DNA of 64,000 bases, from assembly GCF_013128195.2 (NCBI RefSeq), contig NZ_CP053452.2, positions 6,262,001-6,326,000 on the forward strand. Direction: 5' to 3'. The stretch comes from Frigoriglobus tundricola. Its GTDB lineage: Bacteria; Planctomycetota; Planctomycetia; Gemmatales; Gemmataceae. The first letter of the stretch is position 1; the number at the start of each line of letters is the position of its first letter. The position numbers were made by a program, and so were the translations under genes. The notes below the pieces were generated by a model. It was not told the origin of the DNA and ran no database searches. It was given only the letters and a program-made list of their open reading frames with translations. Of the stretch, positions 32,130 through 63,791 are shown in pieces.

Positions 32130-32184
32130 GGTCAGTGTGGCTGTGTTTTCAGCCCGCAGGGCTGAAAACACAGCCACACTGACC
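32130..32184. terminator. Perfect 26-base palindrome
   Basis: The arms begin GGTCAGTGTGGCTGTG and are exact complements over 26 bases with a three-base loop (GCA). It lies between the convergent sigma-factor and radical SAM genes, where a two-way terminator would be expected. No T-run follows. Confidence 0.65.
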
Positions 32185-32274: not shown

Positions 32275-33867
32275 CTACCGCTTGGCGAGTTGCATCACTT
32301 CGGGCACCGGCGCGGCGCAGCCCTCGTCTGCTGGCAGGAGCGTTGGGGGAACGTCGAGCGCGCCGGTGAGCAGATCGCGTTCGAGCTGAATGCCGGTCAT
32401 GCGGCGGATATCCGCCACCGATTCTGTTCCGAACCGGCGCTCCACCATTTCGAGGTAGCCGGCGTCGGTGTAATACTCCGTGAACGCGGCGTCGCGGAAC
32501 CGGAGCACTTCGCGGGCCGGCAAGTAGCGGGTCGGCAGTGGCAGGCTGTCGCGCGAGTGCTGCGAATAACCCGACCACCGTTGCGGCAGCGGCACGCCGC
32601 GCTTCGTCGCGAGCGCGTACAGCGGTGAGCCCGGGTACGCCATCGCCGAATAGAAGTTGGCGAACTCGCACTTCAGGTCGAGGGCGAGGTCCAGGGTCGC
32701 CCGCATGGTGGCGTGGTCGTCTTCCGGCAGGCCGAAGATGTAGTTCCCGATGACGCTGATGCCGGCCGCCTGGATCGCACGCACGACGGCGTACACCTGT
32801 TCCTGCGAGAACGCCTTATCGACGTCCGTCCGCACGCGGTCGGCGCCGGCCTCGATCCCGACCGCGAGCCAGTTGAACCCGGCCGCCTTCAGCTTGTCGA
32901 GCATCCCGTCCTTGATCGTGTCCACGCGGGTGTACGCCCAGATGTTCAGGTCGTACCCGCGGGCAATGATGCCGTCGCAGATCCCGACGACGTGCCGCCG
33001 GTTCAGCACGAACATCTCGTCGGCGATCTTGATGTTCCGCACGCCGTAGTCGTTCACGAGCGTGTCGATCTGCGCGAGGACGTGATCGACGCTCCAGAAC
33101 CGGTAGCTGTTCGGCGCCTGCTTCTCACCCGGCAGGGCGACTTCGCCGTTCTTGAACGGCGCCTGGATGCAGCAGAACGAGCACTGGTACGGGCAGCCGA
33201 GTGTGGTGTAGATGGCCGCATAGGGCTGGCGCGCCTGTCCGCCGAGGCAGTGCCAGTTGTGGGCGCGGTAGCGGCTCATCGGGAGCCGGTCCCACGCGAC
33301 GCCGGGCATCTCGGTGTCGAGCGTCGTGACCAGCGGGGCTTCCGGTCCCCGCTGGACGCGCCCGCCCGCGCGATACCACAGGCCCGGCACGGTACTCGGA
33401 TCGGCCGCGGGCGCCTTCAGGGCCTCGACCAGGCCTACGAGCGTGTGCAGCCCCTCGCCGGCGGCGACGAAGTCGGCTTCTTCCTCGCGGAGCGTGCGCT
33501 CGGGCAGTGCCGCGACGTGCCCGCCCAGCAGGAGCACCGGCTGGTCCGGCGCCGCGACTTTCACGGCGGAGCAGGTGCGCCCCACCGCGGACATGATCTG
33601 CGTCGAGGCCGACGGCTGGTGCCCGTAAGCCACCACCGCCGCGAGCACCGGCTTGAGGTACGCGACGCGGTCCGCCACCTCCGACGCCGACAGGCACTCG
33701 GCCTCGGCGTCGATGATTTCGACCGACAGGCCGCGCGCGCGGCAGTAGGTCGCCATGAGCCCGGCCCACACCGGGTTCTCGACGGCTGCGAGGTCCGTAC
33801 CGAGCGCCTGGTACACCTGCGCGCGGCTGCTCGGGTTGATCAGAACGATGTCGAGACGATTCGCCAT
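32275..33867 (-). CDS. B12-binding-type radical SAM protein
   Basis: 530 residues from the ATG at 33867 (AAGGAAG upstream). An N-terminal cobalamin-binding-like domain (about 1-150; L-L-L-G-G-H-V-A-A-L) is followed by the radical SAM core, with the 4Fe-4S motif C-P-Y-Q-C-S-F-C-C (C-x3-C-x2-C). Next come E-M-F-V-L-N-R-R and G-I-E-A-G-A-D. Class-B radical SAM methylases and related enzymes have this layout. It is the last gene of the minus-strand sugar cluster, separated from the aminotransferase-fold gene by a palindrome. The substrate is unknown; modification of a sugar or of the finished product is a guess from context. Confidence 0.85.
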   Translation of the reverse strand: MANRLDIVLINPSSRAQVYQALGTDLAAVENPVWAGLMATYCRARGLSVEIIDAEAECLSASEVADRVAYLKPVLAAVVAYGHQPSASTQIMSAVGRTCSAVKVAAPDQPVLLLGGHVAALPERTLREEEADFVAAGEGLHTLVGLVEALKAPAADPSTVPGLWYRAGGRVQRGPEAPLVTTLDTEMPGVAWDRLPMSRYRAHNWHCLGGQARQPYAAIYTTLGCPYQCSFCCIQAPFKNGEVALPGEKQAPNSYRFWSVDHVLAQIDTLVNDYGVRNIKIADEMFVLNRRHVVGICDGIIARGYDLNIWAYTRVDTIKDGMLDKLKAAGFNWLAVGIEAGADRVRTDVDKAFSQEQVYAVVRAIQAAGISVIGNYIFGLPEDDHATMRATLDLALDLKCEFANFYSAMAYPGSPLYALATKRGVPLPQRWSGYSQHSRDSLPLPTRYLPAREVLRFRDAAFTEYYTDAGYLEMVERRFGTESVADIRRMTGIQLERDLLTGALDVPPTLLPADEGCAAPVPEVMQLAKR

Positions 33868-33879
33868 CTTGGTGACTTC

Positions 33880-33938
33880 CTTGTGGTGCAGGCGTCCCGC
33901 CTGCTGGCGCGATGCAGGCGGGACGCCTGCACCACAAG
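33880..33938. repeat. Perfect 25-base palindrome
   Basis: Arms CTTGTGGTGCAGGCGTCCCG... are exact complements across a nine-base loop. It lies just upstream of the radical SAM start and may attenuate or separate transcription from the preceding gene. Confidence 0.7.
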
Positions 33939-33959
33939 AGGAAAACGCCGGGGCCGCCG

Positions 33960-35165
33960 TCAGCCCGCGAGGCCGTTCAGCAGGTCGCAGAGCCGGAGGA
34001 TGCGGTCCGCGTCCAGGGTCGGGTAGTTGCCGATGTAGAACCCGTAGAAGTGGACGTGGTCGGCCCGCGGGCACTGCTTCCAGGCGTCGTCGCCGAGCAC
34101 CCGGCGCAGGTACGGCTGGCGGAGCTGGTTGCCGCCGCCGGCGGTGCCGCGGCGGAACTCCACGCCGGCCCCGCGCAGCGCCGCGACCACCCGCTCGTAG
34201 AGCGCCGGGTCGGCGTCCTTCAGGACCAGCGTGAAGGCGTAGTTGCTGCTCCCCTCGGTGTCGAAATCGGTGCGGTACAGGTTCGGGTCGAGGTTCCGCA
34301 GGAACAGCATGAAGTTCGCGGTGCGGCGCTGGTTGTTGTCGTCGAGCCGGCGGAGCTGGGAGCGGCCGATGACGGCGTTGATCTCGGTGCTGCGCACGTT
34401 GTACGCGGGGAACGCGAAGATGAAGTCCGGGTTCAGGTCCGGGAACTCTTCGACGTAGTCGAACTTGCGCCCGTCGCTGCTCAGCTCCCGCACCATGCCG
34501 TGCGACCGGAGCATCCGCACCGTCTCGTACACGTTCTCGTCGTCGGTGCAGACCATCCCGCCTTCGATGGTGCTGAGGTGGTGCGCGTAGTAGAAGGAGA
34601 AGTTCGACGCGAGCCCGAAGGTGCCGAGCTTCCGGTCGTTGAACGTGGCCCCGTGCGACTCGCACACGTCCTCGATGAGCGGGACGCGCCGGGCCTTGAG
34701 TTCGTCAAGCAGCTTCTGCGTCAGCGCGTTGTAACCCAGAACGTGCGTCAGGAACACGGCCCGCGTGCGCGGGGTGATTTTCGAGAGGATCTCGTCGGTG
34801 CCCATGCCGAGCGTGCGCGGGTTGATGTCCGCGAACACGGGGGTGAACCCGCACTGGAGCACGGCCGCGATGTCCGACACCCAGGTGATCGCGGGGACGA
34901 TCACTTCGCCGCCGCTGCCGTGCAGCTCCTTCAGCGCGGCCAGCGTGACCAGGTTGGCCGACGACCCGGAGTTGACGAACACGCTGTACTTTACGCCGAG
35001 CCAGCGCGACCACTCCTCCTCGAACGCGCGGACGTTCTTGGACTGCGTGAGGACCGGGTCGTCCTGCTGGAGCAGTTCGATCACCGCGTTCAGGTCCTCG
35101 CGGGCGATGTTGTTCTTCATCAGCGGCCAGTTCAGCCGGGCCGCGGCGGGTGTGGTGGTCGGCAT
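33960..35165 (-). CDS. DegT/DnrJ/EryC1-fold enzyme lacking the PLP lysine (3-dehydratase-like)
   Basis: 401 residues from the ATG at 35165, with GGAGGAG upstream. PLP-fold motifs: N-S-G-S-S-A-N-L, I-E-D-V-C-E-S-H-G, and at the position of the internal aldimine lysine S-F-Y-Y-A-H-H-L-S-T-I-E-G-G. The usual form there is F-x-P-x-K. His in place of this Lys is the hallmark of ColD and of the CDP-4-keto-6-deoxyglucose E1 dehydrase (S-F-Y-P-A-H-H), which remove the C-3 hydroxyl of nucleotide sugars instead of transaminating. A 3-deoxygenation role is therefore inferred. A REP pair lies between it and the E1 beta gene upstream. Confidence 0.85.
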   Translation of the reverse strand: MPTTTPAAARLNWPLMKNNIAREDLNAVIELLQQDDPVLTQSKNVRAFEEEWSRWLGVKYSVFVNSGSSANLVTLAALKELHGSGGEVIVPAITWVSDIAAVLQCGFTPVFADINPRTLGMGTDEILSKITPRTRAVFLTHVLGYNALTQKLLDELKARRVPLIEDVCESHGATFNDRKLGTFGLASNFSFYYAHHLSTIEGGMVCTDDENVYETVRMLRSHGMVRELSSDGRKFDYVEEFPDLNPDFIFAFPAYNVRSTEINAVIGRSQLRRLDDNNQRRTANFMLFLRNLDPNLYRTDFDTEGSSNYAFTLVLKDADPALYERVVAALRGAGVEFRRGTAGGGNQLRQPYLRRVLGDDAWKQCPRADHVHFYGFYIGNYPTLDADRILRLCDLLNGLAG

Positions 35166-35187
35166 GGTGCTCCTCCGTGAAGGTCTT

Positions 35188-35274
35188 GGAAAGTAGGTCA
35201 CTCGCTCCGCGCGTGACCCCAGCCACTGTCCCCGAATGGAAGGGTGCGACTCGCGGAGCGAGTCGCCTACTCTC
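35188..35274. repeat. Solitary REP pair (REPIN-like), cognate to the RAYT arrays
   Basis: GGAAAGTAGGTCACTCGC at the left end and GCGACTCGCGGAGCGAGTCG...CTACTCTC at the right end face each other, as in each unit of the RAYT arrays at 14553-14800 and 15577-15836. The inner sequence differs. It lies between the aminotransferase-fold gene and the E1 beta gene. Confidence 0.8.
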
Positions 35275-36373
35275 AAAACGGCCCCTTGAACTCGATGCTC
35301 TGCAGGTCGGCCCGCTCGGCCGGGAGCCAGCCGCACGCGCGGCCCTCGACCAGGTCCCGCGCCGCGGCGGCGATGGTCCGCGCGTTCGGGTAGAACAGGT
35401 TCTCCAGCCCCGGCGTCGTCGGGCAGGTGGTCGGGGCGAAGCCCATGCGCTTGAACCGGAAGTCGCGGACGCCCTGGAGCCGCTCCGCGACCTGGGCCGC
35501 GATCTCGGCCGCCGCCCCGCAGTTCGTCCAGCCGGTGTCCACCACCAGCAGCCGACCGGTCCGGCGCACCGAGTCCGTGATGGTGTCGATGTCCAGCGGG
35601 TTCAGCCAGATCGGGTCGATCACCTCCGCCCGCACGCCCACGTCTTCGAGGTACTTCGCCGCCCGCAGGGCCTCGACCTGCATGTACGAGATGCCCACGA
35701 CCGTCACGTCGTCGCCCGCGACCGCGATCCGGGCCTTCCCGGGCGCCACGGTGTACGCCTCGGCCGGCACCGGCCCCTTCTGGAAGTGCAGGAGGCGGTG
35801 CTCGACGTACAGCACAGGGTCGTCGTCGCGGACCGCGGCCGCCAGACACCCCTTGGCGTCGTAGGGCGTGGACGGGGCGACCACCTTGATGCCCGGAACG
35901 TGCATGAAGAAGCTGTGCAGCCCCTGCGAGTGCTGCGCGCCCTGGCCCCAGCTCTTGCCGATCATCGCCCGGACGACCATCGGCACGTTCACCCGGCCGC
36001 CGTACATGTACCGGCTCTTCGCGGCCACGTTGAGGAGCTGGTTCACCGCGAGCAGCAGGAAGTCCATGCGGATGTGGACGTGGATCGGCCGCAGGCCGGC
36101 GAGGGCCATGCCGATCGCGGCGCCGGTCATCGCGTCTTCCGACAGCGGCGTGCCGAACACGCGCTCCGCGCCGAACGCCTCGGGCAGCCCGAGCGTCGTG
36201 CCCTGGATCGCCTTCGGGTCGTCCACGTCGAGGCCGAACAGCACCACGTTCGGGTCGCGGGCCATCTCGAGTTCGGTCGCCTCGCGCACCGCCTCGACGA
36301 ACGTCCGCGTGCGCTCCCCCATTTTGGGGGCCGGGCGCGGGGCGGCTTTAGCGCTGGCAAGCGGCGAGCTCAT
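35273..36373 (-). CDS. Thiamine-diphosphate E1 beta subunit (transketolase-like, C-terminal half)
   Basis: 366 residues from the ATG at 36373 (GGAGG upstream), overlapping the end of the alpha gene by 26 bases. Beta-subunit signatures: G-E-R-T-R-T-F-V-E-A-V-R-E-A, V-F-G-T-P-L-S-E-D-A-M-T-G-A-A-I-G (catalytic Glu), G-G-R-V-N-V-P, H-S-Q-G-L-H-S-F-F, P-G-I-K-V-V-A-P-S-T-P-Y-D-A-K-G. Related subunits are found in acetoin or pyruvate dehydrogenase complexes, but also as the AviB1/AviB2-type pairs that add a two-carbon unit to sugars. No E2 or E3 gene is in the window. Confidence 0.88.
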   Translation of the reverse strand: MSSPLASAKAAPRPAPKMGERTRTFVEAVREATELEMARDPNVVLFGLDVDDPKAIQGTTLGLPEAFGAERVFGTPLSEDAMTGAAIGMALAGLRPIHVHIRMDFLLLAVNQLLNVAAKSRYMYGGRVNVPMVVRAMIGKSWGQGAQHSQGLHSFFMHVPGIKVVAPSTPYDAKGCLAAAVRDDDPVLYVEHRLLHFQKGPVPAEAYTVAPGKARIAVAGDDVTVVGISYMQVEALRAAKYLEDVGVRAEVIDPIWLNPLDIDTITDSVRRTGRLLVVDTGWTNCGAAAEIAAQVAERLQGVRDFRFKRMGFAPTTCPTTPGLENLFYPNARTIAAAARDLVEGRACGWLPAERADLQSIEFKGPF

Positions 36374-37313
36374 CGGCGTCCTCCGTGAAGATGTCGGTCA
36401 TGAGTTCGGACGGGTGCGGGAACGGGCTCGTCTCGGCGTACGCGAACGCCTCGGCCACCTCCCGTTCGACGGCGGCGACGATCATGCTCCGGACCTCCGG
36501 GGCCAGGAGCTCGCCGATCACGCGCACGGAGTCGTTGGCCTGCCACGGCTCGCATTCCGCCTGTGCGCGGTAGCCCAGGTGGTAGTCGGCGCCGGGGCCG
36601 ACGTGCTCGCGCCACCGGTACGTCGTCGCCTCGATGAACTGCGGCCCCGCGCCGGCCCGCATCCGGGCGACCGCGGCTTCGGCCCGCGCGCGAAGGGTGA
36701 GCACGTCGTTGCCGTCGAGGCGCTCGGCCGGCATCCCGTAGGCCCGCGCCCGGGCGCAGATGTCGGCGAGCCCCTGCCGCTTGGCCTGGGCGGTGTGGAT
36801 CGCGTAGCCGTTGTTCTCGCACACGAACAGTACCGGGAGGCGCTTCAGAACGGCGAAGTTCAGCGTCTCGGCGAACACGCCCTCTTCCGTCGCGCCGTCG
36901 CCGAAGAAGCTGGCGACGACCGCGTCCGACCGCCGGACCTTCAGCGCGTAAGCGTAGCCCGCGGCGTTGGCGATGGTCGTGCCGACCACCGCGGACGTGC
37001 CCATCACGCCGCACTCGGTGTCGATCAGGTGCATCGACCCGCCCTTACCGCGCGTGCAGCCGGTCACCTTGCCGTACAGCTCCGCGACCATCGCGCTCAT
37101 GTCCCCGCCCTTCGCGAGGTACAGGGCGTGGCCGCGGTAGGTGCCGAATACCACGTCGTCGGTGCGGAGGACGTCGCACACGCCGACCGACACCGCCTCC
37201 TGCCCGATGGAGAGGTGAACCGGGCTCTTGATCTTGTCGCTCGCGTACACGCGCGCGACCTCTTCTTCCACCCGGCGGATGCGGTACAGCGATCTAAATA
37301 GCCCGGCGTGCAT
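36348..37313 (-). CDS. Thiamine-diphosphate E1 alpha subunit
   Basis: 321 residues from the ATG at 37313 (GGAGG upstream). The ThDP motif is G-D-G-A-T-E-E-G...E-N-N, about 27 residues apart. Other alpha-subunit landmarks: S-I-G-Q-E-A-V-S-V-G, G-T-Y-R-G-H-A-L-Y-L-A-K-G, G-K-G-G-S-M-H-L, E-A-T-T-Y-R-W-R-E-H-V-G-P. Forms a heterotetramer with the beta subunit encoded immediately downstream. The start overlaps the epimerase gene by 20 bases, so translation is coupled. Confidence 0.9.
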   Translation of the reverse strand: MHAGLFRSLYRIRRVEEEVARVYASDKIKSPVHLSIGQEAVSVGVCDVLRTDDVVFGTYRGHALYLAKGGDMSAMVAELYGKVTGCTRGKGGSMHLIDTECGVMGTSAVVGTTIANAAGYAYALKVRRSDAVVASFFGDGATEEGVFAETLNFAVLKRLPVLFVCENNGYAIHTAQAKRQGLADICARARAYGMPAERLDGNDVLTLRARAEAAVARMRAGAGPQFIEATTYRWREHVGPGADYHLGYRAQAECEPWQANDSVRVIGELLAPEVRSMIVAAVEREVAEAFAYAETSPFPHPSELMTDIFTEDADELAACQR

Positions 37314-38256
37314 GTCCGGTGCCCTCCGTGGCGCGGTGGTGCAGGAACCAGTCGTACGTCTCGGCCAGGGCGGCGCGGAAGTCTGCTTCCGCCCGCCAGC
37401 CCATCTCCCGAAGTGGAGCCGAATCGAGCGCTTTCAGCGGCGCGCCGTCCGGGTGGGCGGCGTCGAACCGGATGCGGCCGCGGAAGCCGACCACATCGGC
37501 CACGGCGCTCGCGACGTCGGCGATGCTCACGTCCGTGCCGCCGCCGAGGTTGATCGGGGCGTCGCCCTCGTAGTTCTCGGCGACGAACAGGCACGCGCGG
37601 GCGAGGTCGCGCGCGTACACGAACTCCCGGCGCGGGGTGCCGGTGCCCCAGACCACCAGTTCCGCGTCGCCGCGGACCTTGGCGTCGTGCGCCCGGCGGA
37701 TGAGGGCGGGGATCACGTGGCCGCTGTCCGCGCCGAAGTCGTCGTGCGGGCCGAAGGCGTTGGCCGGAAACCCCGTGACGAACCGGCAGCCGTACTCGCG
37801 GCGGTAGGCGGCGCACAGCTTCCAGCCGGCGAACTTGGCGGTCGCGTAGGCCTCGCTCGTCGGCTCCATCGGCCCGGTGCCGAGCGCGCCGACCGCGAGC
37901 GGTTGCGGGGCGTGCTTCGGGTACGCGCACGAACTCGCGAGGTAGAGCAGCCTCGCCGTGCCGGCCCGGTGGGCGGCGTGGAGGACGTTGGTCGTCGCGA
38001 GCAAGTTGTCGCGCATCAGTTCGACCGGGTAGGCCCGGTTCAGACCGATGCCGCCCGACTTGCCGGCGCACAGGAACACGTATTCGGGCCGGGCCGCAGC
38101 GAAGAACGCCTCCGTGGCGGCGGCGTCCGTCACGTCGGGTTCGTCCGCGCCGATACCGACGAGGCGGGTGAACCGCTCGGCGCGGAGCACGTCGATGAGC
38201 GCGCGGCCGGGGAGGGTCGTTCCGCCGGCGACGAACACGCGGGCGTCCCGCTTCAT
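37294..38256 (-). CDS. GDP-L-fucose-synthase-like NAD-dependent epimerase/reductase
   Basis: 320 residues from the ATG at 38256 (GGAGG upstream). Extended-SDR fold: V-A-G-G-T-T-L-P-G near the start (middle Gly of the usual G-x2-G-x2-G is Thr), V-F-L-C-A-G-K-S-G-G-I, A-S-S-C-A-Y-P-K (GDP-fucose-synthase signature), and Y-A-T-A-K (catalytic Tyr and Lys). The closest well-known relatives are GDP-fucose synthase and ColC, the colitose synthase. In a cluster with a ColD-like dehydratase, a ColC-like role is an attractive inference. The start overlaps the kinase by 4 bases (ATGA). Confidence 0.88.
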   Translation of the reverse strand: MKRDARVFVAGGTTLPGRALIDVLRAERFTRLVGIGADEPDVTDAAATEAFFAAARPEYVFLCAGKSGGIGLNRAYPVELMRDNLLATTNVLHAAHRAGTARLLYLASSCAYPKHAPQPLAVGALGTGPMEPTSEAYATAKFAGWKLCAAYRREYGCRFVTGFPANAFGPHDDFGADSGHVIPALIRRAHDAKVRGDAELVVWGTGTPRREFVYARDLARACLFVAENYEGDAPINLGGGTDVSIADVASAVADVVGFRGRIRFDAAHPDGAPLKALDSAPLREMGWRAEADFRAALAETYDWFLHHRATEGTGHARRAI

Positions 38257-39329
38257 GCCGCCTCCGTGGGGCGGGTGGAGCGGACCAGTTCCTTGAACTG
38301 GCGGCGGCGCTGGCCGCGCGCCCGGTCGGCGGCCTCGTAGTCCGTGCCCGGCTCGTAGAAGATGATCTGGCTGCCGGCCGGCTCGAACTCGAACGGCACG
38401 TGGATGCAGCCGCTCAGCGCCTCGACCACGCTCGCCCGGCGCTCCGGCGGGACGAAGAGCAGGAGGAACCCGCCGCCGCCGGCGCCGGTGAGCTTGCCGC
38501 CGATCGCGCCGGCCGCGAGCGCCGTCTCGTACAGCCCGTCCACGTCGGCGTTGGACACCTCGGGGCTGAGGCTCCGCTTGGCGAGCCACGCCTCGTGCAA
38601 CAGCTCCCCGAACGCGATCAGGTTCACGCCGCCCGTCAGGATCTCGATGGCCTCGTCCACCATCTCCTTCATGATCCGCAACTGCCGGCGCCGGCTCTCG
38701 ATCCCCGGCACGTAGCTCTCCGCCACGTCGGCCGCGGTCCGCACGATGCCGGTGTAGACGAGCATCAGGTTCGATTTCAGTTCGGCGATCCGCCCGGCCG
38801 GCAGGACCAGCGGCGACACCTCGATCTCGCCGTCGGTCTGGAACCGGATGTGGCGCAATCCGCCGTGCGCGGCCACGGTCTGGTCCTGCGAGCCGACCGT
38901 CTCGCCCAGCACGTTCTGTTCGAGGTGAATGGCCTCTTTGGCGAGCTGGTGCTTGGTGGGCATCTCGCCGCGGAGGGCGTGCAGCGCGTGCAACAGGCCC
39001 ACGGTGAAGGCCGAACTGGACCCCATGCCGCTGCGGGCCGGGAGGTCGCCGTCGTGGTGGATCTCGACGCCGCGGTCGATCCGCAGGCTCCGGAGCGCCT
39101 CGCGGACGACCGGGTGCGTGATCTCGTCCACCGACGTACACGTTTCGATCTGCCGGTACACGACGCGGATGCGGTGCTCGAAGAACGGCGGCAGGTGCCG
39201 GCACGTGAGGTAGCAGTACTTGTCGATGCTGGCGGCGAGAACGGCGCCGCCGTGCTGGCGGTACCACGCCGGGTAGTCGGTACCGCCCCCGAAGAAGGAA
39301 ACGCGGTACGGCGTGCGGGAGATGATCAT
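38253..39329 (-). CDS. GHMP-family sugar kinase (heptose kinase/HddA-like)
   Basis: 358 residues from the ATG at 39329. Start motif R-T-P-Y-R-V-S-F-F-G-G-G-T-D-Y-P is typical of D-glycero-D-manno-heptose 7-phosphate kinases and fucokinase-like GHMP enzymes. The ATP motif is P-A-R-S-G-M-G-S-S-S-A-F (about 97-108), and G-G-K-L-T-G-A-G-G-G-G-F is the C-terminal GHMP motif. It phosphorylates a sugar at C-1, feeding a nucleotide-sugar route. First gene of the minus-strand cluster. Confidence 0.88.
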   Translation of the reverse strand: MIISRTPYRVSFFGGGTDYPAWYRQHGGAVLAASIDKYCYLTCRHLPPFFEHRIRVVYRQIETCTSVDEITHPVVREALRSLRIDRGVEIHHDGDLPARSGMGSSSAFTVGLLHALHALRGEMPTKHQLAKEAIHLEQNVLGETVGSQDQTVAAHGGLRHIRFQTDGEIEVSPLVLPAGRIAELKSNLMLVYTGIVRTAADVAESYVPGIESRRRQLRIMKEMVDEAIEILTGGVNLIAFGELLHEAWLAKRSLSPEVSNADVDGLYETALAAGAIGGKLTGAGGGGFLLLFVPPERRASVVEALSGCIHVPFEFEPAGSQIIFYEPGTDYEAADRARGQRRRQFKELVRSTRPTEAA

Positions 39330-44655: not shown

Positions 44656-46860
44656 ATGAACTGGTTTTATAACCGCAGAATCGGCACCAAGTTGCTGCTC
44701 GGCTTCGGGACCGTTTGTGCCCTGATGGCCGCAACCGGGGCCGTGGCCCTGTATGGGATGCGGGCGATCTACGACAACACGGAGGTCATTTACGAGAAGC
44801 ACCTCAGGGGCTTACACGCGGTGGACGAAGCGAACGTTCACCTCGTCATGATCGGCCGGGCGTGCCGGATGACGGTTCTGGCCAAGACGCCCGAGGAGCG
44901 GAAACGGTACCGGACCCAGGCCGACGAGGCCGCCGGAAAGTTCCTCGAGGGGATCGAACACACGGACCAGTATCTGGTCACCGACGCGGCCAAGAGAGTT
45001 TTGAACGACATCCGGGCCATCGCCCCCGCGTGGGTGGAGGAGATGCGAGCGATCGCTCAACTGGCCGAGGCCGGACGGAGCGCCGAAGCGGCCGAGCGGT
45101 TGCAGGCCACGATCGCGCCGGCGACCCTGATCGTGGCCAAAATGGGGGAACTGCGGGAATCCAAGTTTCGCGTCAGCCAGGAGGCGTTCGAACGGGCCAC
45201 GGCCGCTCACCGGGACACGCGCGCCACCATGTTGGGCGTGATCGTCGGCGGGGTCGCGGCCGGGCTCGTGCTCGGGTACCTGATCGCCCGGCTGATCGCC
45301 CGCCCCCTGCAGCGGTCCGTCGCGATACTCGAGGCGGTTGCGCAGGGCGACTTCACGCAGAAGCTGGACGTGACCACGCGAGACGAGGTGGGCCAGATGG
45401 CGGCGGCGCTGAACACGGCGTCGGAGTCGCTGGGCCGGGCCTTGGGCGAGACGGGGGCGGTGATGGCGGCGGTCGCGGCCGGCGACTTCACCCGCCGCGT
45501 TACCTCCGAAACCCGGGGCGAGGTGCGGAAGATGGCCGAGGCGGTGAACGTGGCGTCGGAGTCGCTGGGCCGGGCCTTGGGCGAGACGGGGGCGGTGATG
45601 GTGGCGGCAGCGTCCGGGGACCTGACGCGGCGGATCACGTCGGAGACGCGGGGCGAGGTGCGGAAGATGGCGGAGGCGCTGAACGCGGCGCTGGACAAGA
45701 TGGGCTCGGCGATGCGTGAGGTGCGTGCGTCGTCGGGGGCGGTGGCGGAGGCGAGCACGCAGCTGGCGGCGGCGAGCGAGGAGATCAGCAGCGGGGCCCA
45801 GGAGCAGGCGTCGAGCCTGGAGGAGTGCGCGAGCAGCCTGGAGGAGATGACGAGCGCGGTGCGGCAGAACGCGGACAACGCGCAGCAGGCGCGTCAGCTG
45901 GCGGAGGGGGCGCGGGACGCGGCGGAGAAGGGTGGCAAGGTGGTGACGCAGGCGGTGACGGCGATGAGTGGGATCAACCAGTCGTCCAAGCGGATCGCGG
46001 ACATCATCACGACGATCGACGAGATCGCGTTCCAGACGAACCTGTTGGCGCTGAACGCGGCGGTGGAGGCGGCGCGTGCGGGGGACCAGGGCCGGGGGTT
46101 CGCGGTGGTGGCGGCGGAGGTGCGTTCGCTGGCGCAGCGCGCGGCGGCGTCGGCGAAGGAGATCAAGGGTCTGATCCAGGACTCGCTGCGGAAGGTGGAG
46201 GGCGGCTCGGAGCTGGTGAACCAGTCGGGCCAGTCGCTGGCGGAGATCGTGTCGGCGGTGAAGCGTGCGGCGGACATCGTGACGGAGATCGCGGCGGCTT
46301 CGAAGGAGCAGGCGGCGGGGGTGGAGCAGGTGTCGAAGGCGGTGGCGCAGATGGACCAGGTGACGCAGGCGAACGCGGCGCAGACGGAGGAGCTGAGCGG
46401 TACGGCGCAGGGCCTGACGGGTCAGGCGGACCAGTTGCGGGACCTGGTCGCCTGGTTCAAGCTGGACGACGGGTCCGCGGACGAACCGGTCCGGCGAACC
46501 GCCGCCGCACCCGCTTCCGCGCCGCGGTCGGCCAAGCCGACGGCCCGGCCGGCCAAGCCCGCCGCGCGCCGCCCCGCCCCTGGACCTGGTCGGCGCGTCG
46601 GTGAACGGGCACCACGCGACCCACGGCAACGAGGACGGCTTTGTCGAAATGTGACGCCGTGCGCGGCGGCGGGTGGCCCCGCCGCCGGACGGTCCCAGCG
46701 CGAACTCTCTCGTCATGAGGTTGCCGGTCGTCCGGTCGAGGGCCGGCTCACCCGAGACCGTTGGCGTTCCGACACGCGATTCCGCGAGCTGACCGTCGCG
46801 TGCGGCGCGGCCGCGACTGATCGACCCGCTTCCACACCCTGCGGCACCACGGTGCCGTGA
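44656..46860 (+). CDS. Methyl-accepting chemotaxis protein 1, C-terminus frameshifted
   Basis: 734 residues from the ATG at 44656. First membrane helix about 12-32, periplasmic 4-helix sensor, second helix about 195-215. Three HAMP-like repeats follow (each with G-D-F-T/G-D-L-T...S-E-T-R-G-E-V), then a signalling domain with the tip [17 protein letters not shown]. After the linker the frame shifts near 46575 relative to MCP2. The tail therefore loses the D-G-F-V-E-M ending of MCP2 and instead reads through about 80 unrelated residues to 46860. The original tail can be read in another frame up to 46653. Confidence 0.85.
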
Positions 46861-46877: not shown

Positions 46878-48749
46878 ATGAACTGGTTTCATAACCGCAG
46901 GATCGGTACCAAGTTGCTGCTCGGCTTCGGGACCGTTTGTGCCCTGATGGCCGCCATCGGGGTCTTCGCCCTGGATCGGCTTTCACGGGTGAACGAATCG
47001 ACAACCGACATTGCCACCAACTGGATGCCCAGCATCAAGTTCGTGCAAATGGTGAACATTGAACTGTTCAGCTTCCGGCGTGCCGAACTCCAGTACCTGC
47101 TCACTAGCTCCGAGCAGGAGCAGGCCAATTTTATCACGCGGATGGAAGCGACGAAGGTGACCCTGGAAAAGGCCCGCCAGAAGTACGAGCCGCTGATCGC
47201 CAGTGAGGAGGAGCGGCGCATGCACGAGGACTTCCGGGCGCTTCTGGCGGCGTACTACGCCGAGAACCAGAAGATCATCGCCCTGACGCGCGCGAAGAAG
47301 ATGGAAGAAGCGAGGCAACTGGGCCGGGAGGAGTCGATGCGCGCGCTGAACGCCACTGCCGCCAAGCTCCAGGAACTCGTGGACCTCAACGAGCGGGGCG
47401 GGCTGGACGCGGAGGCCCGGGCGTCCGCGACCTACGCGAGTACCCGCTGGACGATGATCGGCGTCGTCGGGGCGGGAATATTCCTCTCCCTGGTGATTGC
47501 CGTTTCGATCAGCCGCCTGATCGCCCGGCCGCTCGCGAAAGCGGTCGAGGCGCTGGACAAGGTGGCCGCGGCCGACTTTTCGGCCCGGCTCGACGTGTCC
47601 AGCGAGGACGAGGTCGGGCGGCTGGCGGTGGCGGTGAACGCGGCGTCGGAGTCGCTGGCGCGTGCGCTGGCCGAGACGGGGGCGGTGATGGCGGCGGCGG
47701 CGTCCGGGGACCTGACGCGGCGGATCACGTCGGAGACGCGGGGCGAGGTGCGGAAGATGGCGGAGGCGCTGAACGCGGCGCTGGACAAGATGGGCTCGGC
47801 GATGCGTGAGGTGCGTGCGTCGTCGGGGGCGGTGGCGGAGGCGAGCACGCAGCTGGCGGCGGCGAGCGAGGAGATCAGCAGCGGGGCCCAGGAGCAGGCG
47901 TCGAGCCTGGAGGAGTGCGCGAGCAGCCTGGAGGAGATGACGAGCGCGGTGCGGCAGAACGCGGACAACGCGCAGCAGGCGCGTCAGCTGGCGGAGGGGG
48001 CGCGGGACGCGGCGGAGAAGGGTGGCAAGGTGGTGACGCAGGCGGTGACGGCGATGAGTGGGATCAACCAGTCGTCCAAGCGGATCGCGGACATCATCAC
48101 GACGATCGACGAGATCGCGTTCCAGACGAACCTGTTGGCGCTGAACGCGGCGGTGGAGGCGGCGCGTGCGGGGGACCAGGGCCGGGGGTTCGCGGTGGTG
48201 GCGGCGGAGGTGCGTTCGCTGGCGCGCGCGGCGGCGTCGGCGAAGGAGATCAAGGGTCTGATCCAGGACTCGCTGCGGAAGGTGGAGGGCGGCTCGGAGC
48301 TGGTGAACCAGTCGGGCCAGTCGCTGGCGGAGATCGTGTCGGCGGTGAAGCGTGCGGCGGACATCGTGACGGAGATCGCGGCGGCTTCGAAGGAGCAGGC
48401 GGCGGGGGTGGAGCAGGTGTCGAAGGCGGTGGCGCAGATGGACCAGGTGACGCAGGCGAACGCGGCGCAGACGGAGGAGCTGAGCGGTACGGCGCAGGGC
48501 CTGACGGGCCAGGCGGACCAGTTGCGGGGCCTGGTCGCCCGGTTCAAACTGGACGACGGGTCCGCGGACGAACCGGCCCGGCCGGCCGCTCCCGCGCCGC
48601 GGCCGGCCAAACCGGTGGCCCGGCCCGCGGCCAAGCCGTCCAAGCCGGCCAAGCCCGCGCGTCCCGTCCCGTCCCTGGACCTGGTCGGCGCGTCGTCGAA
48701 CGGGCACCACGCGACCCACGGCAACGAGGACGGCTTCGTCGAAATGTGA
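46878..48749 (+). CDS. Methyl-accepting chemotaxis protein 2
   Basis: 623 residues from the ATG at 46878. The first 25 residues nearly match MCP1; the periplasmic sensor (about 35-190) is different; two HAMP-like units follow. The signalling domain is almost identical to MCP1 at the DNA level from about 47701. One residue is missing within the coiled coil: R-S-L-A-R-A-A-A-S where MCP1 has [10 protein letters not shown]. It ends with an intact [16 protein letters not shown] tail, perhaps a tether for CheR or CheB. Confidence 0.92.
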
Positions 48750-61993: not shown

Positions 61994-62785
61994 TCACGCA
62001 GCGGCGAGTTCGGGTACGCGTTCGACCGGTGCGGGGCCGGCCGGCTTGCGGGTCGACGCCTCGACGTAGCGATCGATGATCTCGCGCGGCGGCCCCTGCG
62101 CGACGATCCGCCCGTGCTGCATCCAGACCACGCGCGTACACATGTTGGCGATGGTCTTCAGGTCGTGCGCGACGATCACCATGAGCCGGGAGGTGTTCAT
62201 CAGCTCCCGCATCCGCGCCTGGGCCTTGCTCGTGAAGGCGAGGTCGCCGACCGCGAGGATCTCGTCGACCAGCAGCACCTCGGGGTTGATGGCGGTGGCG
62301 ATGGAGAACGCCAGACGCATCTGCATACCGGCGGAATAGTTCCGCACGGCGATGTTCAGGAAGTCGCCCAGTTCGGAGAACGCGGCGATCTCCTCCAGCT
62401 TGCTCCGCACGCTGCGCGACGATTCGCCCTGGAGGTAGGCGCGGTAGCGGATGTTGTCCCAGCCGGTCGCCTCGAACTCGAAGCCGAGGGTGATGTCGAA
62501 CAGCGAGCAGATTTTGCCCTCGACCGTGCATGTACCGGCGGTCGGCGGGTACACGCCGGCGAGCGTCTTCAGGAGCGTACTCTTGCCGGCCCCGTTGTGG
62601 CCGATCACGCCGATCCGCTCCCCGTCGCGCGCGGACAGGTTGATGCCCTCCAGCGCGCGGACCCGCATCATCGGGTTCGCGGCCCGGCGGAAGAGCCCGC
62701 GGATCATGTACTCCTTGAAACTGACCCGCTTCTGCTGGTGAACGTTGAACGTGACGCCGACGTTACGGAGTTCGATTTTCGCCAT
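61994..62785 (-). CDS. Polysaccharide/polyol phosphate export ABC transporter ATP-binding protein
   Basis: 263 residues from the ATG at 62785. Walker A G-H-N-G-A-G-K-S-T-L-L (about 59-69), signature Y-S-A-G-M-Q-M-R-L-A, Walker B L-L-V-D-E-I-L-A-V-G-D, H in V-A-H-D-L-K. The D-E-I-L-A-V-G-D form and Y-S-A-G-M signature are those of Wzt/KpsT/TagH export ATPases. The permease gene is divergent, 220 bases away. Exports surface glycan precursors across the inner membrane. Confidence 0.92.
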   Translation of the reverse strand: MAKIELRNVGVTFNVHQQKRVSFKEYMIRGLFRRAANPMMRVRALEGINLSARDGERIGVIGHNGAGKSTLLKTLAGVYPPTAGTCTVEGKICSLFDITLGFEFEATGWDNIRYRAYLQGESSRSVRSKLEEIAAFSELGDFLNIAVRNYSAGMQMRLAFSIATAINPEVLLVDEILAVGDLAFTSKAQARMRELMNTSRLMVIVAHDLKTIANMCTRVVWMQHGRIVAQGPPREIIDRYVEASTRKPAGPAPVERVPELAAA

Positions 62786-63005: not shown

Positions 63006-63791
63006 ATGCTGCACCAAATAACCGCGATCTGGAAGTTCCGAAGTTTCCTGATGGCGCTCGTCCAGCTCGACTTCCGGCTGCGGTACAAGCGGTCGTGGCT
63101 CGGGGGCGGGTGGTCGCTGGTCCACCCGATCGCGATGGCCGCCGCGTACGTCATCGTGTTCAGCGGCGTACTCATGCAGTCGCCCGCGTCGTACGCCACA
63201 ACGCTCCTGTTGCACCTGGCCGTCTGGGGGTTCTTTCGGGATTCGGCGGTGGGCGGGTGCCTGGCACTCATCTCCCACGAGTCCTACATCCGCCAGCACC
63301 CGCTGCCGTTCGGCCTGTACCCGCTGCGGTTCGTCATCGGGTACGCGATCCAGGCCCTGTTCGCGCTGGCGGTCGCGATCGCCGCGGTCATCATTGTGGA
63401 CGGGAACCCGTCCAAGCTCGGGATGCTCTGGGCCGTGGTGCCCGCGCTCGGCATGGTGTTCGTCGCGGGCTGGGCGGTCGCGACGATCGTCTCGTTCGCA
63501 CAGGTTCACTTCCACGACACCCAGCACCTGTTGGAGATCGGCGCGCAGGTTCTGTTCTTCCTGACCCCCATCGTTTATCCGCCCAGCCTGCTGGTGAACA
63601 AGGGGCTGGGGTGGATGGTGCGGTTCAACCCGCTGAACCTTTACCTGGAACTGGTCCGCTACCCGCTCACCACCGGGGAACTGCCGCAAGCCAAACTGTA
63701 CCTGTACGGAGTGGTGTGTACCGGGATGCTGGTCGGCGTCGCCGCCGCGACCGCTTCGCGCTTCCAGAAGAGGGTCGTGTTCCACCTGTGA
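63006..63791 (+). CDS. Polysaccharide export ABC transporter permease (ABC-2, Wzm/KpsM type)
   Basis: 261 residues from the ATG at 63006. Opens with V-Q-L-D-F-R-L-R-Y-K-R-S-W-L-G-G-G-W-S, then six hydrophobic helices, and the conserved F-L-T-P-I-V-Y-P and R-F-N-P-L-N-L-Y-L-E-L-V-R-Y-P segments of the family. Partner of the ATPase encoded divergently at 61994-62785. The divergent layout is unusual for this pair. Confidence 0.92.
   Translation: MLHQITAIWKFRSFLMALVQLDFRLRYKRSWLGGGWSLVHPIAMAAAYVIVFSGVLMQSPASYATTLLLHLAVWGFFRDSAVGGCLALISHESYIRQHPLPFGLYPLRFVIGYAIQALFALAVAIAAVIIVDGNPSKLGMLWAVVPALGMVFVAGWAVATIVSFAQVHFHDTQHLLEIGAQVLFFLTPIVYPPSLLVNKGLGWMVRFNPLNLYLELVRYPLTTGELPQAKLYLYGVVCTGMLVGVAAATASRFQKRVVFHL

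Follow-up and report, generated by a model that had tools for sequence, protein, structure and literature searches.

A six-gene locus of Frigoriglobus tundricola is the Gemmata form of a widespread cassette, probably for a branched heptose-based surface sugar

The cassette and its proposed pathway

The 64,000-nucleotide stretch of Frigoriglobus tundricola DNA analysed here (the window, positions 6262001-6326000 of the contig, in a genome of 9.86 Mb) carries a six-gene locus for a kinase, an epimerase/reductase (EPI), the two subunits of a thiamine diphosphate (ThDP) enzyme, a lysine-less DegT-fold protein and a radical S-adenosylmethionine (SAM) protein, rSAM (Table 1). The locus is the Gemmata version of a cassette which is found in many bacteria and probably builds a branched heptose-based surface sugar. 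We propose, with a probability of about 0.58, that the cassette makes, for a surface glycan, a higher sugar that is both branched and deoxygenated, by way of GDP-heptose and ThDP-dependent two-carbon branching at C4. The first-pass annotation of this DNA had already described a sugar cassette, and this idea largely holds; its hexose backbone probably does not, a heptose being more likely.

In the proposed route SDR1, a dehydrogenase resembling Cj1427 of Campylobacter jejuni, would oxidise C4 and pass the hydride to 2-oxoglutarate, giving L-2-hydroxyglutarate, and the DegT protein would then strip the C3 hydroxyl. The two-subunit ThDP enzyme would attach an acyl unit of two carbons at the C4 ketone, and the product would be a nine-carbon sugar with a tertiary alcohol and an acetyl or glycoloyl branch. 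EPI may epimerise C5 and/or reduce a ketone, perhaps that of the branch, and rSAM may methylate or rearrange the product. Oxidation at C4 and dehydration at C3 of GDP-heptose were shown by others for Campylobacter enzymes, according to the accessible parts of that literature, while the branching and all later steps, the two-carbon donor and the final product are what we infer. The most doubtful step is the branching itself, in which the C4 ketone would have to go to the ThDP enzyme and not to EPI.

Table 1. Genes of the six-gene locus, with their positions in the window
Product	Position	Strand	Basis
GHMP sugar kinase, HddA-like (proposed heptose 7-phosphate C1 kinase)	38253-39329	minus	Pfam GHMP_kinases_N + _C
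GDP-fucose-synthase-like epimerase/reductase (EPI)	37294-38256	minus	Pfam NAD epimerase; NCBIfam GDP-L-fucose synthase
ThDP enzyme alpha subunit (E1-alpha type)	36348-37313	minus	Pfam E1_dh; loop EHVGP
ThDP enzyme beta subunit (E1-beta type)	35273-36373	minus	Pfam Transket_pyr + Transketolase_C
Lysine-less DegT-fold protein, ColD-like (proposed 3-dehydratase)	33960-35165	minus	Pfam DegT; best solved match ColD/WbdK
B12-binding-type radical SAM protein (rSAM)	32275-33867	minus	Pfam Radical_SAM + B12-binding

Every expected Pfam domain of the window proteins scores above its own cut-off. The arrangement is the one first described, with all genes on one strand and overlaps of 4, 20 and 26 bases among the first four; the 26-base overlap depends on the upstream ATG of the E1-beta gene, and the matches of several relatives begin at residue 1 of that reading. 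Inverted repeats lie in the intergenic gaps of the operon and just past it, at 32130-32184, 33880-33938 and 35186-35277 (arms of 26, 25 and 29 nt, which are 100, 100 and 83% complementary), and resemble small palindromic repeat elements.

Conservation and spread

An ortholog of the DegT protein (69-100% identity) was found in 25 of 95 Gemmataceae genomes, the host included, and the next full match had 34% identity. All six genes stand in one order at 17 of these 25 loci and seven loci are interrupted by contig ends; one (L053) has no kinase match, and a differing gene order was found at none of the 25. Relatives at 81-87% DegT identity in the genome collection include records named Gemmata. 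Among 392 Planctomycetota genomes the DegT search (E up to 1e-45) gave 16 matches including the host, six of them outside the family at 61-67% identity and nine at 32-39%. In the former group a split transketolase replaces the E1 pair of Gemmata in L074 and L076-L078, L075 has an E1, and L079 has an E1 in a reshuffled gene order. The latter group, of ColD-like DegT proteins, served as a context control: matches to the kinase, the ThDP enzyme, SDR1, HddC and rSAM were absent from seven of its nine loci, while L083 is a full cassette with a split transketolase and the 3 kb locus L068 holds E1 beta, SDR1 and an HddC-like match.

A scan of genome contigs with a 12-row DegT alignment gave at least 306 relatives, and the best 80 (62-87% identity) were retained; 43 of these loci exceed 19 kb (long loci), and content was read by tblastn at 60 bits or more. 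The record titles name Planctomycetes, Verrucomicrobia, Nitrospira, Nitrospinota, a cyanobacterium, several proteobacterial classes, Anaerolineae, Elusimicrobia, Omnitrophota, Chlorobiaceae, Lentisphaeria and others, mostly as metagenome bins with some doubtful-looking taxon labels. The kinase and a two-subunit ThDP enzyme were each found in 42 of the 43 long loci, SDR1 in 38, rSAM in 37, an HddC-like protein in 35, EPI in 29, a GmhA-like protein in 12, and a GmhB-like protein and L-2-hydroxyglutarate oxidase in 10 each; since retention favoured the best matches, many of them related, such counts do not stand for independent events. The set recurs in planctomycetes, the group in which the first-pass annotation would have compared neighbourhoods, yet it is not specific to them and appears reshuffled in many phyla.

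A second sample, independent of DegT, consisted of seven plasmid records chosen by their SDR1 relative. Six have a ThDP pair (four E1-type, two transketolase-type), five a kinase and five a DegT-like match. On plasmid pDMC1 of Solidesulfovibrio magneticus the genes for rSAM, a NUDIX protein, the kinase, the E1 pair, a GDP-fucose-synthase-like protein, DegT, SDR1 and a nucleotidyltransferase are consecutive. The P0005 query at E 1e-60 gave no plasmid match, though plasmid cassettes exist; the three DegT proteins compared from such cassettes are 29-36% identical.

The DegT, EPI and radical SAM proteins

Residue counts for DegT, EPI and rSAM were taken from a subset of loci. The window DegT protein carries the motif AHHLSTIEGG, in which His occupies the lysine position as in ColD, and among solved structures it matches 2gms (WbdK/ColD) best, with 188 bits over residues 11-389. 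The same His was found in 90 of 90 cassette-type relatives, divergent ones included; three Lys-bearing DegT proteins in L111 and L138 are other genes. The lysine-less, ColD-like nature claimed for this protein at first reading is thus borne out, and we propose that it is a ColD-type 3-dehydratase. The likeness to ColD is one of sequence; the structure model is poor (predicted local distance difference test score, pLDDT, 55; 12 rows). DegT relatives, at best 39% identical, also occur in 63 phage records (54 named Synechococcus phages); in Synechococcus phage ACG-2014f (L179, 10080-13197) the gene lies beside a GDP-mannose dehydratase and an epimerase in what looks like a colitose-type set.

EPI matches the NCBIfam GDP-L-fucose synthase model with 352 bits, under the cut-off of 500, and the catalytic Cys, His, Tyr and Lys are kept in 46 of 46 relatives. 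The CxxxCxxC motif of rSAM is present in 61 of 61 proteins, and the window protein has a B12-binding match of 36.1 bits (cut-off 32.1). The nearest structure to its model (pLDDT 87.8) is the diol dehydratase AprD4 (Z 29.1, root-mean-square deviation 3.2, 416 aligned); B12-dependent methylases come after it, the next matches being MgmA (Z 27.1), OxsB (26.3), CysS (25.7) and TsrM (25.4), in a comparison where the absence of a PDB family from the match list does not amount to its exclusion. With AprD4 first and methylases next, this likeness makes no choice among deoxygenation, methylation and ring chemistry. PADLOC gave one weak match to the radical SAM core.

One slot for several two-subunit ThDP enzymes

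The ThDP slot of the long loci is filled by an E1-type pair in 13 cases, a split transketolase in 17, a truncated "mini" pair in 11 and a divergent E1 in one, and only L150 has it empty; L124 holds an E1-type pair plus a transketolase pair on the opposite strand. A mini pair has about 200 and 178 residues, and the beta half alone was found in L131; a domain scan of one mini pair matched its beta half to the pyrimidine-binding domain only. The ThDP genes lie on the strand of DegT, and at most 700 bases from it in 30 of 42 loci. Such varied enzymes in one slot would be expected if two-carbon transfer is what matters.

The cassette transketolase protein TktC carries Gly in 25 of 25 cases (24 without the opposite-strand copy) where two reference transketolases have a His, which we take to be phosphate-binding; an Arg near this site is retained in 9 of the 25. 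The TktC proteins are unlikely to be ordinary transketolases. The point bears on a different explanation, that sedoheptulose 7-phosphate or a similar precursor comes from the ThDP pair, in which case the sugar made would be an unbranched 3-deoxy-heptose. The route does begin at sedoheptulose 7-phosphate, a transketolase product, transketolase-type pairs are frequent in the slot, and EPI, as a likely C4 reductase, would complete such a sugar. Given the replaced His, and the E1-type and mini pairs in this slot, for which no production of ketose phosphates is known, we regard precursor supply as rather improbable.

The backbone of the sugar

SDR1 (L074 copy) matches PDB entries 6vo6/6vo8 over its full length with 395 bits, and the next entry scores 79. 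These entries are, as we take it, C. jejuni Cj1427, a GDP-heptose C4-dehydrogenase. The accessible part of PMC10680097 gives C4 oxidation of GDP-heptose as the chemistry of Cj1427. L-2-hydroxyglutarate oxidase was identified with 501-614 bits (cut-off 299) in the three proteins tested, and its genes fit the proposal because hydride transfer from SDR1 to 2-oxoglutarate would give L-2-hydroxyglutarate. The best NCBIfam match of the kinase is HddA, with 131 bits far under the cut-off of 600. Taken together, the GmhA-, GmhB-, HddA- and HddC-like partners point to a heptose pathway, by a resemblance that does not establish membership enzyme by enzyme.

The hexose version favoured by the first-pass annotation would lead from GDP-mannose to a colitose- or yersiniose-like branched hexose. 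EPI is nearest to GDP-L-fucose synthase and DegT to ColD, both hexose enzymes, and genes of the GDP-mannose-dehydratase family exist elsewhere in the host. However, a GDP-mannose 4,6-dehydratase-like protein was found in none of the 43 long loci and in one of the 37 shorter ones (L129), and the loci carry instead relatives of heptose-type kinase, phosphatase, isomerase and C4-dehydrogenase, so a hexose backbone is very improbable.

The SDR1 ortholog of the host (6330642-6331580) is encoded outside the window, with a gap of 4.6 kb from its edge, and is 84% identical to the copy of Gemmata sp. IIL30; its neighbours look, by eye, like glycosyltransferases, a sulfotransferase and an ABC exporter. 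At the edge of the window itself (61994-62785 and 63006-63791) there is an apparent polysaccharide-type ABC exporter pair, which leads into this SDR1-bearing glycan cluster (L180). A second set, also read by eye, was seen at 2.834-2.848 Mb of the host genome (L183), with a GHMP kinase, a nucleotidyltransferase, a SIS protein, a HAD phosphatase, and transaldolase-like and GDP-fucose-synthase-like proteins.

The E1-type pair of the window

A two-subunit E1 fold, no E2 partner and a position among sugar-nucleotide genes are the marks of the alpha-KADH2 enzymes, and the window pair was found to have them. A single-chain carboligase of the YerE type, from the decarboxylase superfamily, was also considered and is ruled out, the pair consisting of E1_dh and Transket_pyr/Transketolase_C proteins. 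An E1 pair whose loop also reads EHVGP, with an alpha subunit about 50% identical, was seen on plasmid pSGRIFU1 of Streptomyces griseofuscus (L215, 11986-14032), where the surrounding cluster is of polyketide/peptide type and the annotation shows no sugar genes close by. This Streptomyces pair is in favour of the view that the ThDP enzyme acts elsewhere than on the nucleotide sugar (on a lipid, an acyl group or a side-chain aldehyde), so that the sugar would be decorated, not branched; sugar-nucleotide enzymes constantly accompany the cassette pair, however, and we see only a slight chance for this view.

As for ordinary 2-oxo-acid dehydrogenases, the best NCBIfam matches of the window pair are pyruvate dehydrogenase (PDH) E1 alpha (293 bits, cut-off 394) and E1 beta (261 bits, cut-off 321), and E1 beta matches the PDH E1 beta structure 3duf with 216 bits. 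In a 79-row alignment of E1 alpha a loop H[ST], presumably the phosphorylation loop, is present in 29 of 29 other planctomycete E1 alphas versus none of 39 cassette rows (36 distinct), the window protein having EHVGP in its place. In the tree, which was made without L212 (fused frame), a branch (97/88) sets these 29 proteins, taken regardless of E2 neighbours, apart from the rest, and the window protein lies inside a cassette clade of 30 rows (93/86); the cassette E1s do not make up a single lineage but several, and support is weak at some branches. A search with the host E2 against the predicted proteins of 139 sequence sets (the window and 138 others, loci of various lengths, some overlapping) detected no E2 apart from the control L182; the search covered E2 only, not E3. 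At 4.04 Mb the host carries an E1alpha-E1beta-E2 set of its own, which has 26% identity to the window pair. The opinion of the first-pass annotation that the pair is unlike an oxo-acid dehydrogenase is supported by the loop, the clade and the E2 search, and it is hardly credible that the pair is the E1 of such a complex standing among sugar genes by chance.

Points against the proposal

A number of observations weigh against a branched sugar derived from GDP-heptose. EPI is likely a C4 reductase and would compete with the ThDP enzyme for the same ketone, and the evidence for the pathway as a whole consists of gene content, conservation and residue patterns. All of the HddA-, HddC-, GmhA- and GmhB-like proteins that were tested remain under their NCBIfam cut-offs (HddC 149 bits against 300, GmhA 187 and 154 against 209, GmhB 162 and 167 against 178), and one HddC-like protein scores higher as a mannose-1-phosphate guanylyltransferase. 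In the host the precursor genes are scattered: the HddC-like match is split over two frames next to a GmhB-like gene at 1.96 Mb, and the best GmhA match is weak (96 bits, cut-off 209). The cassette is also not uniform, as rSAM is missing from 6 and EPI from 14 of the 43 long loci, L150 holds DegT and rSAM alone, and L099 has no SDR1 or HddC match. A Sinorhizobium fredii plasmid has kinase, HddC-, GmhB- and DegT-like matches, and no ThDP pair was found on it. Plasmids of Azospirillum sp. B510 and A. argentinense carry SDR1 with a transketolase pair and no DegT match within 10 kb; because of these two loci the C3 deoxygenation suggested at first reading, which is consistent with the lysine-less DegT protein of the cassette, cannot be taken as universal.

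A still wider idea, tentative and rather doubtful, is that the cassettes make a hitherto unrecognised class of surface monosaccharides with nine or ten carbons, spread by horizontal transfer, in which interchangeable ThDP pairs would place a C2 unit on C4 of GDP-heptose and rSAM would then methylate the product or close a ring, giving higher sugars comparable to bradyrhizose or caryose.

Apart from the sugar genes, two adjoining chemoreceptor-like genes of the window (44656-46860 and 46878-48749) share near-identical stretches, which suggests a tandem duplication.

Significance and comparison with known systems

A description of this gene combination was not found in the open-access literature, most subscription papers lying outside that scope; PMC4703794, PMC12507525, PMC9912281 and PMC3684757 contain nothing decisive in their accessible parts. 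ThDP-dependent branching in surface glycans is known from YerE-type enzymes on hexoses, and the 2025 review PMC12247030 (here and below, its accessible part) reports E1- and transketolase-type branching chiefly from antibiotics. If our proposal is true, one reaction slot filled by various two-subunit ThDP enzymes in many phyla is a natural experiment in carboligase evolution, and undescribed branched heptoses are to be expected in Gemmata, Nitrospira, Azospirillum and others; Solidesulfovibrio magneticus RS-1 (plasmid pDMC1) and Azospirillum lipoferum 4B are culturable strains where such sugars could be sought.

The E1 alpha/beta pairs reported in PMC12247030 add C2 units to keto sugars of antibiotics, and KbDH was seen in vitro to couple pyruvate with ketones. 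The same source speaks of some 120 clusters that carry E1 pairs of this kind, so some cassettes may be among them. The alpha-KADH2 carboligases of antibiotic sugars (aldgamycin; kibdelomycin, KbDH) share with the cassette a two-subunit E1-like ThDP enzyme beside sugar-nucleotide genes; they serve antibiotics, whereas the cassette is of surface type, probably for a heptose, and includes a kinase, a C4-dehydrogenase and a radical SAM protein, a comparison made by description only. The split transketolases of miharamycin and amipurimycin are likewise two-gene enzymes, with a proposed hydroxyacetyl transfer onto a keto sugar. The 13 split transketolases of that source, proposed for C2 addition to keto sugars, are all from Streptomycetes, whereas those of the 17 long loci lie outside that group.

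In the C. jejuni modification of GDP-heptose (Cj1427, the HS:5 C3-dehydratase, C4 reductases) no ThDP or radical SAM step is described in the accessible parts of the sources. The C4 reductases DdahC and MlghC have T/H and Y/R and lack the Cys/His dyad, in the accessible part of PMC7949155, whereas EPI keeps this dyad. Bradyrhizose was considered and no link to the cassette is shown: PMC4743980, in its accessible part, calls the biosynthetic genes unknown and names a dTDP-glucose 4,6-dehydratase. PMC12247030 attributes the caryophyllose of M. marinum to a YerE-like enzyme and assigns YerE-like enzymes to lipopolysaccharide; YerE itself is a member of the decarboxylase superfamily.

Two hexose pathways are also parallels. 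Yersiniose (YerE) shares with the proposed route a lysine-less C3 dehydration followed by C2 branching at C4, and colitose (ColD, ColC) the same dehydration followed by epimerisation and reduction. Both differ from it in their hexose backbones; YerE is neither an E1 nor a transketolase, and yersiniose is CDP-linked, whereas the cassette would join a C4 branch to GDP-heptose by a two-subunit enzyme.

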